Source: Propionibacteriaceae bacterium
GTDB lineage: Bacteria > Actinomycetota > Actinomycetes > Propionibacteriales > Propionibacteriaceae
Assembly (NCBI GenBank): GCA_031266665.1
Contig: JAISAO010000094.1
Span: forward strand, 1 to 64,000
Direction: 5' to 3'
Length of the DNA stretch: 64,000 nucleotides
The notes below the pieces were generated by a model, which was not told where the DNA came from, searched no databases, and saw only the letters and a list, made by a program, of their open reading frames with translations. A program made the position numbers and the translations under genes. This document shows, one piece after another, positions 35,519 to 42,755 of this stretch (positions within the stretch are counted from its first letter, which is position 1; every line of letters starts with the position of its first letter).

Positions 35519-38500
35519 TTAACGAATCCCGACAAGGCGTATCAAGAAATCCCACGCCATGCCGAGCAGATTCCCCATGTCGAGGGCCGCCGAGACTCTA
35601 TCCAGAAGCCCCACAACAATCACAAGCGCGCCAAACCACCAGTATCGCCGTCGAAGGCTCCGGCAGAGATCCATAAACTCAGACCACATCTTTTGACCAG
35701 ATCGTCCTGTATCCACAATTACTGTAATAGGTTGCGACCGAGCGCTCACAAGCAGTTCGAAACTATTCCAGCCGTACCGTGCCACTAAAGCCACCAGTTC
35801 AGCTATAAGGAGTAATTCTAGCGTCGGTCGAGCCGCCGGCCACAGCGACACGCACACAGAAATGACGATCCCCAGGGAGACCGGCAGTAGAGTCGCCCAT
35901 CGCGTCTGCAAGGTGAGTGACGATCGGAGCTTGTCAGGCTCTGCCGCAATTAGGTTCCTCCTCGCCAGAATGGTCTCGACCCTCCGGGGGTCGAAGCGGA
36001 AGCGCACGAGGGTTGCGAACGCGACGCATTGCACAATGACAAAGACTTGCACCACCGGTATTGAGTCCACGGCGAGGAAGGCAGCTACGGGCACTGCGAA
36101 GACAGCGGAAGTCAATCGGGGGTCGACCGACAGCACCAGTTCCGTGGAGAGAAAGTCGAAGGCCTCGGCCCCAGACGTTTGCGTCTTCTTTGCGCTTCGC
36201 AGGATTGGGATTCGTATTCGTGTTATAACCGCCGCAGATGCCAGCAGGAACCATAGGCCAACCACTATACTGGGCCAATTTAGGCCCGCAACATGTGATA
36301 TCACATACCCTACCGCTGACACCGACACGGCAAAAGCCAGCGTGTCGGCTCCCAGCGAGTCCTTGACTAGTCGTCGGGCGGCCATCAGCAGAGCTGCCCA
36401 TAGCCACCATCCAAGCCCGGTCAGCAACGCTAGCGCACCTAGCTGGGGGAAAGCCACGGCAGTGGCGACCCCGTAGCTGACCAGCGGTCCCACTGTGGTA
36501 AGCATTATTCGCTCGTCCACGTTGGGAAGGAGGTTCACCAAGAACCATAGGAGGGTCAGAGCTGTGACTATCGTTCCTCCCGTGTTGGTGGTGATCCAGC
36601 CGTACCCCGTGACGGCAACCAATGACGAGACCCACTGCGGCGGCGCGGCTCCTGGAATAGCGATTCCAATCAGCAGGAGCACAGCGGTGACCACCAATCC
36701 GAACAGGGCCTGCAAGGGAATGGTGCGCACATATGAGGCCACCTGGCGCACTCGGGGCCCAAGTCCATGTTGACGGGGGACTGATGAGCGGCAGAGGCCG
36801 TGGAGCGCCAAATCATTAATGACCGCCACCGCCAGATCTTCGAACACACGACAGTCGCGCCGCGACACACCGGCCATCGCGAACTTGGTGAGTTCGGAGT
36901 TAATTCTCATTCGCAGATGGCGCTCGTCCTGCGACATGAGGCTCGAGCGCATGGGCTTCACTAGTCTAGTCGCGTACAAGATGGCTGTTCGTTCATCCAT
37001 CGGGAAACCGGATGACCTCAGGTTAGCGACTGCTGCACATATCCGCGCGTTGATATCGGCGTCGAGTTCAGCATCAAGCGAGAGACTTGTAACCGGTTTA
37101 GAGGCTTGCGCCGCATAGGTCCTCACTGATTCTGCGGAGAGCTTAAATTCCTTGGGGAACAGGCCATCCAGTTCTCCAAGTCGGTCAATTCTTGATAGCT
37201 GATCCAGCACTCTCCCTTTGGCGTCCCGGGACCATCCGCTCTCTATTCCCTCGCAAACCAACGCCGCCTTGCGCCAATATGTTGCCGGAGATTCCTGAGT
37301 CTCTAGAGACACCAACTCATAGTTGAGCTGTTCGATCACCGCCGCGTTCGCCAATCCCAAAACCTTTGCGATGCAGTCTTCCGCGCTACGCCAGGTTGGC
37401 ATACTCTCAACCCAGAACCGGCGATCCGTCGCTAAATGAACCTGGTATGCTGTTGGGCCGCTTATGACTCCCCCGTCCGCCTGATCGAGCCATCCCGCGA
37501 CGTCGCGAAGCCAAGCGGCCAGACTGGCGAGTTCATCCGCATCGGTTGAACGGCCTGCGGCTACTAGCTGCCAGGATGATCTCCCGCGAATGTCTGTGGG
37601 CATCACTTCTACGGCCTCTAGGAACGCTCGAACAGGGTCATCCATCTGGTCGCGCCGCGCTAATGCTTCCTCTGCATACTTGACGGCTTTGTCAGACGGG
37701 TTGACCCCGATCTTACTCACATATTCGCCGATACCAGAGGCCTCGACCATGGAACGGAACTCGGCGTACACTTCGGAGATGCTTTCCTCCAGGTTCCATT
37801 TGGCATCATCGAGAGCCGATGACAACTGTCGCCGAGCAGAGTCGGCTTCCCAGCATTGACGCTGAGCCTTGTCTAGGTTTCTGCTCATCTGACGACTGCT
37901 GGGAAGCTCCTCTCCAGCGGCGGAATTAACCGCCCATCGGAAAATTTTTTGACTCGTGGCGTTAAAGATGAGAACTAATGGGTCGATAGGATCAACGATG
38001 AAAGCCGCCTCGAAACGCTCTCCGTGTCGCCCGACGCGCCCGAGTATCTGTCTATCTAGCCGGGGTTCCCGAGTGTGTCCGAGCACCATTAGCATCGGGT
38101 TGTTCGCGGAGCGGATATCGACACCTCGCGCCGCACCTTGGTTCATGATGGTAATGACTCCACAGTCACCGGCGTATTCAATGGCCGCGGCCGTCCGCTC
38201 ATGGTCGAAGACCGTGAGCGCATTGATCCTGCGCCCCTCTACCCGCTCACGAAGCGCCTGCGTCGCGGCAATTGCTTCCGCTTGCGAATGCGCCGCGACG
38301 ATCAAGGGACGCTCCGGGTTGCTTTTCGCCCACTCCGCGATGAAGTTGAACGTGTCAGCGCGAGAAAGCGAGAGCCATGTCGGCGGATCGCTCTGGAACC
38401 GAGGAAACTTCGGCGGGACTGTGACCGTAGGCGTCCGGAACAGCTGAGCGTAATATAGAAGATCGTACGACGCCGTGCCCGAACAGCCAACAACCACGGG

Positions 38501-39604
38501 GTGGCTGCCGAGGAGGCTCAGAAGTGACACTCTGGCAGTGATACGAGCCACGGGAGGCGCTTCGGAAAAGACTAGGTGGTGTAGCGCCCGCGCTCTGTCG
38601 TCTGTGTAGGAAGTGTAACTGCTTCCAGTGGTCTGGTTGATTAAGCGGATGTGGTTCCCCGACACCTCGTACTCTCGTCCTGCCATGGCGTTTCGCGCCC
38701 ATAGAGAAGCCACTGTCATATTCACAAGACGGTCGCCGGGCAATGCCAGACCTGTCGCTAGCGAGTGCAGTTGGCGCACCGCCTCCGGTTGCAGTGTAAT
38801 CCGATTGTTTATTGGATTTCGTTCGAACTCGGCAGGACCCCAGTCCGCAGTGATTTCAAAGATGTCGCCCCACCGAGAGTCCTTGAACTGGACGTAGGTG
38901 ACCAATGCACAGAGAGGGTCTGCGTCTATCAGAGCAGAATCGATTTCGTCTATGATCATCGCCGCCTCGTGAGGGTATTCTCCCAGACTCGACCTGGGGG
39001 CTCTACGCGTCCTGTTTAGGTACCCAGAAAGCAATTCATCAGAAGTTAGGTAGCTCACGCCGACGAACTCTGCGGGAGGCAGGCCATTTACAACCTTGAT
39101 GCCCAAGAACGACAGATAGGGTTCCACTCGTTCACGATCCCGCTCCGCGAGATACTGATTCACGGTAAGAACTAGTACTTGCCTGTACTGCTTGAGGAGG
39201 ACCACACAAGCCATTGCCACTGCGTATGTCTTGCCTTCCCCTGTGTCCATCTGGACGTTCATCCCGGTTGATAGGCAGTCGGCTGCGATAATCTGCGTGT
39301 CATAAGCGCTCGATCCCGGGGGTAGATCACACGGGTGTCGATTGAACGCCGCTACTGCCACCGCCAATGTATGCTGGTCTTCCATGTCACCGCGCGCTCG
39401 GGCGAGGCGTCGACGCACTGCGCCAATGATTCCGTGTCCGCTTGACGCGTCGACGCTCAACTCAGAGTATGACCGCACGAGTTCAGCGTCCGATTGACTC
39501 TCGTAGGAGCTGATCAGCATGCGCAGTCGCTTAGGCACGTCATCATTCGAGAAGAGTCGTGTAATAGCTGCGATCACGCGCTGCACCATAACAAGTACCA
39601 ACAT
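35519..39604 (-). CDS. SecA-like ATPase motor fused to a polytopic membrane domain
   Basis: 1361 residues; not housekeeping SecA. Residues ~80-560 carry SecA motor motifs: QIIAADCL, Walker A DTGEGKT (120-126), [10 protein letters not shown], Walker [12 protein letters not shown] (DEID 219-222), GCSGTAS (373-379, SecA MTGTA), [10 protein letters not shown], and [14 protein letters not shown] (SecA RGRAGRQGD). About 560-950 is a helical region without known motifs. About 965-1361 holds ten or eleven hydrophobic helices and ends RLVGIR. SecA has no such membrane domain and no zinc tail is present here. The ATG has GGAG 8 nt upstream. Codon use and G+C differ from neighbours, indicating transfer. 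Function in export or defence is unknown. Confidence 0.85.
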
Positions 39605-39646: not shown

Positions 39647-40207
39647 TCAGCTCGTCGGGAAGCGGGTGCTCATGTCGGCAACCACCCATTCCGTCCAGAG
39701 GATCGACCTCGACAGAATCTCCTGCAACTGAACCGGCGCTAAGCCAGCCCCAACAGGCAACTCATACGCGAGCGTGAGTTTGCAGCCCGACTGGACCCTT
39801 TCGGATTCAACCTGTGCTGCTGACTCACCGGAACCAGCAGAGATCACAACCTGGTTTGCGGTCGCTTTCATCGGGAGCCGTGCGCATTCTCGCTGGGCAA
39901 ACTCTTTGAGGGATATGAGATCGACCTCCGGGAAAACCCTCGCGATGTCTGCCTTAATGTACAGAACCGCCGGCTTCAACGGTTCGTTCTGGTAGGTGAT
40001 GGTCTTCACCATGATGGTGTAGTTGTCAAATCTCGCCGTGACCGTCTTCTCGGTGGTTGAGAAGCTAACACTCAAGGCGGCGAGTGTGCGCCCGATCAGT
40101 TCAGGCGTGACCTCGACCAGTAGTGATGTGAACCATGCGGGATCGCGCGCAGAATGAGTGCCCTTAAATACATTCGCCTCGCAATAGAGAGGTTTATCAT
40201 CCGCCAT
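39647..40207 (-). CDS. Unknown 186-residue partner of the SecA-like protein
   Basis: No family recognised. It lacks a signal peptide and membrane helix and reads as a mixed alpha/beta cytoplasmic protein with two parts: about 1-105 (SLLVEVTPELIGRTLAALSV, FDNYTIMVKTITYQNEPLKP) and about 105-186. ATG at 40207 (TTG at 40210 also open) with AAAGGGGG 8 nt upstream. Only 42 bp separate it from the SecA-like gene in the same direction, so they are probably co-transcribed. By size and position it could be a chaperone or adaptor for the motor; that is a guess. Confidence 0.65.
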   Translation of the reverse strand: MADDKPLYCEANVFKGTHSARDPAWFTSLLVEVTPELIGRTLAALSVSFSTTEKTVTARFDNYTIMVKTITYQNEPLKPAVLYIKADIARVFPEVDLISLKEFAQRECARLPMKATANQVVISAGSGESAAQVESERVQSGCKLTLAYELPVGAGLAPVQLQEILSRSILWTEWVVADMSTRFPTS

Positions 40208-40442: not shown

Positions 40443-41125
40443 TCAGCCGAACTGTGCCATGTAATCAAGCGGTGTCCGCAGGCCTTTCGGATAACGACAG
40501 TCGAGGATGGCTTGCGTTTCCAGTGGCGTGAGAACTGAGGCTGTGACGCTATCAGGTCGCCGCCATGACTCGAAGAAGCCAACCAGTGTCTGATCCTCAT
40601 AGTCTTTGCTCGCAGTCGCGCGGAGCCGCCGCTCGACAATAGCCAATCGTCGCAGGCCAGACCAAGCGAGACAGTCGGGCGCGGATTGCGCTCGAATCGA
40701 GAGTTCTTCCAATTCATCTCGGACGCTGGCCGCCAGGAATGCGCCGCCTTGATCCCCCGCCTTGACCCCGAAAACAAACAAGGACATGGGGCGCGACGCC
40801 TCCACCGACGCGAGTCGGGCTCGGAAGTGGTCCGTCTCGCTGGGACAGTGGCAGGGCAGGGGTTCGCAGCGGCTTGGAGCGAGATGATCCGTGGAGTGAT
40901 ATCGGAGTCTTCGGTCTTGATGCCGAGTGCCCCGGCGATGGCGTCTTGGTCGTCGGGGTGAACAACGCGATGGGCGATCTTGAGGTTGGTGTTGCGGAGC
41001 ACTTCGGAATTAACTCTACTGGGACTTTGGTCGACGACGATGATCTGTTCGCCGAAGGCGCAAACTTCAGCAAACTTCAGCAAGCATACCAGAGAGTAAT
41101 GCGGCAGATGCGCGTCGGGCGCTGA
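40443..41125 (-). pseudogene. C-terminal remnant of a HerA-like ATPase gene, frameshifted
   Basis: Minus-strand fragments read MLAEVCAFGEQIIVVDQSPS, then RVNSEVLRNTNLKIAHRVVH and PDDQDAIAGALGI, the C-terminal signature of HerA/DUF87-type ATPases. A perfect 10-bp tandem duplication (AAACTTCAGC, 41061-41070 and 41071-41080) breaks the frame; removing one copy restores LLSGMLAEVCAFGEQ. A second frame change is needed between about 40840 and 40900 to reach the final open part (to the stop at 40443, including MSLFVFGVKAGDQGG). Walker A and B regions are missing. It lies first in the direction of the two genes downstream, suggesting a former three-gene unit. Confidence 0.65.
41061..41080. repeat. 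10-bp tandem duplication causing a frameshift
   Basis: AAACTTCAGC occurs twice in direct contact inside the HerA-like remnant. Ten is not a multiple of three, so the duplication itself is the lesion. Confidence 0.8.
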
Positions 41126-41215: not shown

Positions 41216-41506
41216 ATGGCTGCGGCTACCACGACTCCCGTCACCGTGTCCGCCACCGAGGCCAGTCGTCGGTTCGCGGATGTCATCGAGCGCGCCCGCC
41301 GGGGCGAGCGTTTCACCATCACCAAGAACGGCCGGCCGGTGGCCCGGGTCCTGCCGCCCGAGTCCCGGCCCAACGGCGGCGTCGTCCTGGCTTTCCTCGA
41401 CGCCTGGGAGGGAGGCGGGTTCGACGACCAGTCCGAGGCCGCCCTGCGGTCCTTCCGCGACCCCGCCCCGAGCGACCGGGAGCGCCTGGCATGGGCCGAC
41501 GCCTGA
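41216..41506 (+). CDS. Phd/YefM-family antitoxin
   Basis: 96 residues. The N-terminal DNA-binding part VTVSATEASRRFADVIERAR, then RFTITKNGRPVARVLPPE, is the Phd/YefM fold; the remainder would wrap the toxin. It overlaps the PIN toxin gene by 16 nt. It should repress its own promoter and neutralise the toxin at 41491-41898. A DNA -10 hexamer sits 8 nt before the ATG. Confidence 0.85.
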   Translation: MAAATTTPVTVSATEASRRFADVIERARRGERFTITKNGRPVARVLPPESRPNGGVVLAFLDAWEGGGFDDQSEAALRSFRDPAPSDRERLAWADA

Positions 41507-41898
41507 TATTCGACACCGGCGTTGTGGCCGCCTGGGAGCGCCGCCGCCTGGCCTGGGATTTGATCCTGGAGCCCGACGACGACCTCGGCCTATCCGTCGT
41601 GTCATTGGCCGAGCTGAGGGCCGGCGTCGCCTTGAGCCAGGCCGACCGCCGACCCCGGGCCGAGCGCTTCCTGGCCGAATTGCTCCGGCTTGTCGAAGTC
41701 CTCCCCTACGACGAGCAGGTGATAGCCCACCACGCCCGCCTGCTGGCCTGGACTCACCGCCACGGCGTCCCTCGCGGCGGCCTCGATCTGGTGATCGCCG
41801 CCACGACCGCCGCCACCGGCCGAACCCTTCTCACCCTGGACGGACGAGCCCGCTTCGACCAACTCCCCGGAGTCGAAGCCCGACTGCTGGACTATTAG
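41491..41898 (+). CDS. VapC-type PIN-domain ribonuclease toxin
   Basis: 135 residues. Acidic PIN residues are all visible: Asp8 (LIFDTGVV), Glu41 (SLAELRAGV), Asp99 (GGLDLVIAA) and Asp117 (LTLDGRARFD). The family cleaves specific tRNAs or rRNA when the antitoxin is lost. Start overlaps the end of the antitoxin gene. The gene looks intact, so the pair is probably functional. Confidence 0.88.
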   Translation: MGRRLIFDTGVVAAWERRRLAWDLILEPDDDLGLSVVSLAELRAGVALSQADRRPRAERFLAELLRLVEVLPYDEQVIAHHARLLAWTHRHGVPRGGLDLVIAATTAATGRTLLTLDGRARFDQLPGVEARLLDY

Positions 41899-42002
41899 CA
41901 GAGCGTGTAGCCATGGCCGTGCGGGCGAACCCGTCTGACGACGGGCGGGCGAGGTGGGGCTGGCGGCCTCGGGCGCGACTCGGGCTAGCCGGTTCAGGGG
42001 AC

Positions 42003-42263
42003 CTACTTGTCCCCGTAGTGGCCGCCGCACTGCGCGACCTGGACGGTGTCCCCGACCACCCGGTAGACGAGCCTGTTCCAACCGTCGATACGCCGTGATC
42101 GCCATCCCGCCAAATCGCCCCGAAGCAATTCAGGTTGACCTAAGCCGGTGCCCTCGCCGCGCTGGATGTCGGCGATCAAGCGATGCACCCGCTTGAGCAA
42201 GCGCTTGTCCGAGGAACAGGCGATGTAGTCTTCCCACCCTTCCTCAGTAAACGCCACCTTCAT
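42003..42263 (-). CDS. YoeB/Txe-family mRNA interferase toxin
   Basis: 86 residues. Residues matching the catalytic set of E. coli YoeB are present: Glu45 (GQPELLRGDLAGWRSRRI), Arg64 (DGWNRLVYRV), His82 and Tyr83 (CGGHYGDK). The family cuts mRNA in the ribosomal A site. The ATG overlaps the antitoxin stop by 4 nt (ATGA). Confidence 0.88.
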   Translation of the reverse strand: MKVAFTEEGWEDYIACSSDKRLLKRVHRLIADIQRGEGTGLGQPELLRGDLAGWRSRRIDGWNRLVYRVVGDTVQVAQCGGHYGDK

Positions 42264-42532
42264 CGGGAGGCCGCCTCCAGCGCCTCCAGTGTCGTAACCT
42301 GGGCGAACTCTCCCCGCTCGGCCCTCGCCACCGACTGGGCCAGGCGAGCTTGATGGGGTTGGCTGTGGAACGGGTCGGCCTCCAACGGGAAGGGGATGGT
42401 CCCCGTGCGGGCGACCGCTTTGAGGAACACGGTCACGGCGGCGGTCATCGACAAGCCGATGTCCTCCAGGACCTCCTGGGCGTCCTGCTTGACGGAGTCT
42501 TCGATCCGCACTGTGACCGCTGATGTTGACAT
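42260..42532 (-). CDS. RelB/DinJ-family antitoxin paired with a YoeB toxin
   Basis: 90 residues. The N-terminal ribbon-helix-helix region SAVTVRIEDSVKQDAQEVLE, then IGLSMTAAVTVFLKAVAR and IPFPLE, is typical of RelB/DinJ. ATG at 42532 is preceded by AAGGAG at 7 nt; a longer open frame upstream lacks support. YoeB normally pairs with YefM, so this is a mixed pair. A TATGAT hexamer lies ~35 nt upstream. Confidence 0.85.
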   Translation of the reverse strand: MSTSAVTVRIEDSVKQDAQEVLEDIGLSMTAAVTVFLKAVARTGTIPFPLEADPFHSQPHQARLAQSVARAERGEFAQVTTLEALEAASR

Positions 42533-42755
42533 TGGTGTGCTCCTTAGCGCTGTTTGTGCTGAAGAAATCATATCAACCGTGGACTGATCGTACCTGATGC
42601 TGTCACACTCTCGATTCGGCCGCGACTCCCCCGACAGGCCGCCGCCGAGGCCGACGACCCGATGGCGAGCGGGCGGCGGCCCGTGCTGAGCGGCGGCACC
42701 GACCATCGTCTGGCGGCGCTCGCGCTGGCCAGGCCGATTATCGGTGGACAGGGGC

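Follow-up and report, generated by a model that had tools for sequence, protein, structure and literature searches.

Introduction

The known cargo of SecA motors is unfolded polypeptide, and SecA2 proteins act through the ordinary Sec channel. A comparative study of 2021 mentioned SecA-like ATPase domains together with MFS domains in giant toxins of actinobacteria (Kaur et al., PMC8195603). An engineered SecY-SecA fusion, in which the two proteins form one chain, transports protein (PMC5562318). Here we describe a natural protein, encoded in a 64,000-nucleotide stretch of Propionibacteriaceae DNA (hereafter the window), that joins a SecA-type motor to a C-terminal polytopic membrane domain. 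A small YbjN-like gene lies directly upstream.

Results

The N-terminal motor belongs to the SecA family

The fusion protein and its parts are as follows.

35519..39604, minus strand: fusion protein of 1361 aa, SecA-type motor followed by a C-terminal polytopic membrane domain
38921..39319, minus strand: NBD1, residues 96-228, with Walker A TGEGKT at 121-126 and a further 16 motif letters; 50% identity to the G191 protein (see below)
38510..38920, minus strand: PPXD-like insert, residues 229-365, at the position of the SecA substrate clamp; weak profile support; 33% identity to the G191 protein
37955..38509, minus strand: NBD2, residues 366-550, with 31 motif letters; P-loop_SecA match at 1.7e-7; 44% identity to the G191 protein
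37730..37954, minus strand: scaffold-like long helix after NBD2, residues 551-625, corresponding to the first part of the SecA helical scaffold
36770..37729, minus strand: helical linker, residues 626-840, followed by a helical domain with a better model, residues 841-945, at the position of the SecA wing and two-helix finger
35522..36769, minus strand: membrane domain, residues 946-1361, 10-11 helices, N-in topology, basic cytosolic loops at 1192-1236 and 1276-1321

The gene at 35519-39604 is a single uninterrupted frame of 1361 codons on the minus strand, with an ATG start preceded by GGAG. An earlier note on this DNA had claimed ordered SecA motor motifs in the N-terminal part; all are present and stand in SecA order, namely DTGEGKT (residues 120-126), DEID (219-222), GCSGTAS (373-379), a 10-residue motif (488-497) and a 14-residue motif (516-529). 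Alignment with SecA1 and SecA2 showed that TGEGKT, DE-D and GR-GR-G are invariant, with the Walker A, Walker B and arginine motifs intact.

Profile searches distinguished SecA from helicases. The Pfam SecA_DEAD model matched residues 30-228 with 79.6 bits (cut-off 24.6; E 3e-22) and P-loop_SecA matched residues 429-505 with 31.5 bits (cut-off 27; E 1.7e-7), whereas the general DEAD model reached 18.8 bits, under its cut-off of 26 (E 0.0014). Eight SecA or SecA2 models of NCBIfam matched at E 1.4e-32 to 1e-15, as against 0.004 for the best helicase model, RecG; the maximum score of 113 bits did not reach the equivalog cut-offs of the SecA and SecA2 models (725-1493 bits). All 24 matches in a sequence search of the PDB were SecA or SecA2, the best at 1.5e-23 with residues 33-634 aligned, and the best non-SecA matches to the motor were about 20 orders of magnitude weaker than the SecA matches. 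An ordinary SF2 helicase is thus ruled out by the Pfam, NCBIfam and PDB matches, and we conclude from these comparisons that the motor is a member of the SecA family. An ordinary SecA is encoded on another contig of the same genome.

In a model of residues 1-960, much of the motor was predicted with pLDDT of about 60-88, and its top 36 matches in the PDB were all SecA (E 4e-29 to 3e-14), the best other protein being at 3e-9; since SecA2 sequences were part of the model's alignment, these matches are supporting evidence and not independent proof of the fold. The membrane half (model of residues 560-1361) had a pLDDT of 40 and was not interpretable.

A second member in an independent genome

The earlier note had called for a search for homologues with the same two-part layout, and had raised the concern that the membrane part might be a separate gene joined by an assembly error. 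One homologue was found, in G191, a single-contig genome of 8.2 Mb from another family of the same order. It is 1375 aa long, has the same layout, is 32% identical (BLAST) over nearly its full length and is likewise preceded by a homologous upstream gene. Because this layout recurs in an independent genome that is itself a single contig, an assembly join is excluded and a chimeric origin refuted. In the stretch that begins at the scaffold helix and ends with the membrane domain, identity was about 25-31%, the membrane domain itself being 29% identical; similarity over nearly the full length indicates conservation of the entire chain, including its membrane part.

These two proteins were the only members found in searches that reached over 1,300 different actinobacterial genomes. 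A profile of the C-terminal part, run against 148 genomes, matched the window protein alone, and the fusion gene was in none of the congeners. Scans of plasmids, phages, viral contigs and GTDB contigs returned no further members; the contig scans used short peptide patterns, so that their empty answer is weak. Other matches in relatives, at 26-29% identity, were rejected as members because they are ordinary SecA2 proteins without membrane helices.

The motor is a deeply divergent SecA relative. In a maximum-likelihood tree of 19 motors, the two fusion proteins formed a fully supported clade, set on a very long branch apart from SecA1, SecA2 and the alphaproteobacterial plasmid SecA-like group; with midpoint rooting and a branch of this length, the tree does not fix the exact sister group of the fusion clade.

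The wing and two-helix finger are apparently missing

Between NBD1 and NBD2 lies the PPXD-like insert, a mixture of helix and strand in the structure model. The SecA_PP_bind profile matched it at E 0.019 in the G191 homologue and gave no match in the window protein. Beyond NBD2, the phmmer alignment to SecA runs to residue 634, and a helix at 570-622 was modelled with low confidence. About 320 helical residues separate the scaffold-like helix from the membrane domain, and those at 841-945 were modelled with pLDDT of about 65-79.

The SecA_SW profile (PF07516), which covers the wing/scaffold domain with the two-helix finger, matched neither fusion protein, although a copy that has diverged beyond the reach of the profile is conceivable. 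In control searches (L006, L020 and L023), SecA1, SecA2 and even a divergent plasmid SecA all matched. The domain has thus apparently been lost from the fusion, a feature that, like the conserved YbjN-type gene upstream, was absent from the earlier note. The control L023, encoded on the Miltoncostaea plasmid NZ_CP064357 (L023:3797-5992), is annotated as hypothetical; this SecA-like protein of 731 aa lies on a long branch and has a complete set of SecA domains, wing/scaffold included.

A domain of 10-11 helices with the motor predicted on the cytosolic side

The ten or eleven hydrophobic C-terminal helices that had been claimed were recovered in both members, as 10-11 segments at 967-1341; hydropathy averaged over the pair gave eleven. 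If the N-terminus is placed inside, lysine and arginine residues number 29 in the even, cytosolic loops of the window protein as compared with 3 in the odd loops, and the corresponding counts in the G191 protein are 23 and 4. This positive-inside analysis argues for 11 helices and a motor on the cytosolic side. The segments at 1157-1191 may form either a tight hairpin or one long helix; in the latter case the helices would number ten. The domain had no relative in Pfam or the PDB by sequence, and a SecY profile gave no match up to E 10 in either member.

These features bear on whether the protein might be an accessory SecA-type ATPase that works through the cell's SecYEG, with the fused domain as an anchor or auxiliary subunit. 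With an ordinary SecA also encoded in the genome, a normal Sec channel is presumably there for such an ATPase to use. However, the wing/scaffold domain with the two-helix finger, which SecA inserts into SecY, is undetectable, and 10-11 helices exceed the need of an anchor. We regard this explanation as rather improbable.

Comparison with known SecA systems

In common with SecA/SecA1, the fusion protein has NBD1, a PPXD position and NBD2 in the same order, all ATPase motifs and a long helix after NBD2; it differs in forming a clade of its own on a very long branch, in the loss of the signature IDEARTPLI, in the missing wing/scaffold match and in its fused membrane domain. Like Mycobacterium-type SecA2, it accompanies a normal SecA as a second ATPase of the family, and its motor shares about 29% identity with actinobacterial SecA2. 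SecA2 proteins, however, are without a membrane domain and retain SecA_SW.

Three alphaproteobacterial plasmids, NZ_CP049813 (L030:1-8225), NZ_CP085155 (L031:1-6650) and NZ_CP123586 (L032:1-6695), carry operons with a SecA-like ATPase of 650-690 aa that lacks the wing/scaffold domain. Each also encodes an HlyD/RND-type adaptor and a PqqD-M50-like membrane protein, with DUF3467 in two of the three, and upstream lies the gene, 24-38 kb long, of a giant LEPR-XLL/Ig/calcium-binding protein. These operons look like a dedicated secretion system, on which no paper was found in the literature. The absent wing/scaffold domain and the pairing with a dedicated polytopic membrane protein are shared with the fusion, but motor and membrane protein are separate genes in these plasmids, the motor is much closer to SecA1 and the membrane partner is M50-like. 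A Rhizobium plasmid (L024:1292-5413) may be a further case, only a PqqD-type protein and a SecA-like match having been seen. The Lactobacillus taiwanensis plasmid NZ_CP059277 (L033:1216-5911) carries a full accessory Sec set, with genes annotated SecG, SecE, SecA and SecY.

The giant toxins of Kaur et al. (PMC8195603), compared by description only, also bring a SecA-like ATPase and a membrane transporter domain together, so that the earlier claim that no characterised protein has this layout was slightly too strong. Those toxins are giant and contain GT4, ART and peptidase domains, however, and the fusion protein has none of the three. The engineered SecY-SecA fusion (PMC5562318) is alike in joining SecA and a polytopic membrane domain in one chain, but it is artificial and its membrane part is SecY.

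A conserved YbjN-like gene precedes the fusion gene

39647..40207, minus strand: YbjN-like small protein, directly upstream of the fusion gene (ATG at 40207)

A small gene on the same strand lies directly upstream of the fusion gene in both genomes; the gap is 42 nt in the window, as compared with 3 nt in G191. The encoded proteins are homologous to each other (28% identity, E 2e-8; z 10.9 against shuffled sequences). The G191 gene matches Pfam YbjN (PF10722) with 27.8 bits (cut-off 22; E 3.3e-6); the window gene, which has no match to PF10722 above the cut-off, is thus YbjN-like as a homologue of the matching G191 gene. A search of the PDB with the YbjN profile returned no match. The YbjN fold resembles that of type III secretion chaperones, although the authors of the structure saw no evidence of a secretion role for the family (PMC5398634). 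From its pairing with a SecA-type motor, we infer that the YbjN-like protein is a chaperone or adaptor partner. Neither a SecA/YbjN pairing nor the present fusion protein was found described in the literature searched, which left most subscription journals outside.

Genomic setting

40443..41071, minus strand: decayed, frame-shifted gene remnant, similar to the C-terminal end of HerA-type ATPases and lying immediately upstream of the gene pair (PADLOC HerA models, best E 3.4e-4)
41216..42706: two adjacent type II toxin-antitoxin pairs, likewise upstream, Phd/YefM and PIN (plus strand) and RelB and YoeB (minus strand)

The fusion gene and the YbjN-like gene have a G+C content of 54-61% in a genome of about 70%. 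The pair lies upstream of prcB (proteasome prcB/prcA), and those congeners in which the prcB region was read have different genes at this place. The pair looks horizontally, and recently, acquired. The HerA-like remnant is an uncertain member of the system.

Around the G191 copy, the genes code for a PrsW protease, two dynamin-like GTPases, a zeta-toxin-like AAA protein and a protein resembling muconolactone isomerase; the two-gene unit is all that the window and G191 loci have in common. The GTPases, of 1403 and 559 aa, are adjacent to each other beside the PrsW protease (L027:8408-14295). No recognisable substrate gene lies beside either copy.

The setting in the window invites two other explanations. 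The very patchy distribution, the island-like insert of low G+C, and the Phd/PIN and RelB/YoeB pairs and HerA-like remnant nearby would be consistent with a phage-defence or conflict effector, in which the YbjN-like protein acts as the sensor of an invader signal, or is held by that signal, and the ATPase opens or disrupts the membrane via the fused domain. Yet neither the fusion protein nor its partner has a PADLOC match, the G191 copy is not among recognised defence genes, and the toxin-antitoxin pairs do not belong to the set shared with G191. We consider this function unlikely. The second explanation is membrane-protein quality control, in which the motor would extract polypeptides from the membrane or keep them soluble for degradation. 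Unfolded chains are substrates of SecA motors and prcB is the immediate neighbour in the window, but the G191 copy is away from proteasome genes and congeners have prcB without the fusion gene, so that the prcB neighbourhood resembles an insertion site. The proteasome neighbourhood was set aside as a functional link on these grounds, and a quality-control role seems very unlikely.

Discussion

The earlier note had proposed a self-contained translocator or a membrane-acting defence effector. The SecA-type motor and its one-chain fusion to a polytopic domain are upheld by the present analysis; the membrane part has no detectable relation to SecY or any other family, and no defence model matches the protein. 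Catalytic motifs and a clamp-sized insert are kept while the finger region is traded for an attached membrane domain, a combination for which the best explanation is a polypeptide translocase or insertase that anchors itself in the membrane and is supplied by a chaperone-like partner. We give this reading an even chance of being right. The cytosolic motor (NBD1, PPXD-like clamp and NBD2) would bind unfolded polypeptide and use ATP to drive it toward the fused 11-helix domain, which would substitute both for docking on SecYEG and for the role of the absent wing/two-helix-finger region. The YbjN-like protein may present a dedicated client or hold it in a translocation-competent state. In such a scheme polypeptide is what would be moved, with the membrane domain as conduit or insertase. 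That the artificial SecY-SecA fusion transports protein (PMC5562318) indicates that a one-chain layout is mechanically possible.

A more far-reaching form of the translocase reading, tentative and somewhat doubtful, is that of a SecY-independent single-chain translocase with a conduit unrelated to SecY and a YbjN-type chaperone, the two genes making up a secretion system.

The SecA-YbjN unit would be a new two-gene variant of SecA-type machines and is directly testable. The parallel with SecA-like proteins whose genes neighbour those of giant secreted-type proteins points to a broader class of SecA motors that have parted from SecYEG. How the ATP cycle of SecA is coupled to movement through the channel is a long-running question, motor and channel normally binding only transiently. 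A natural fusion from which the finger has apparently been dropped would reveal which parts of the motor are needed under permanent attachment to the membrane domain. Should that domain be the conduit, a two-gene system amenable to reconstitution would contain a channel for proteins with no relation to SecY.
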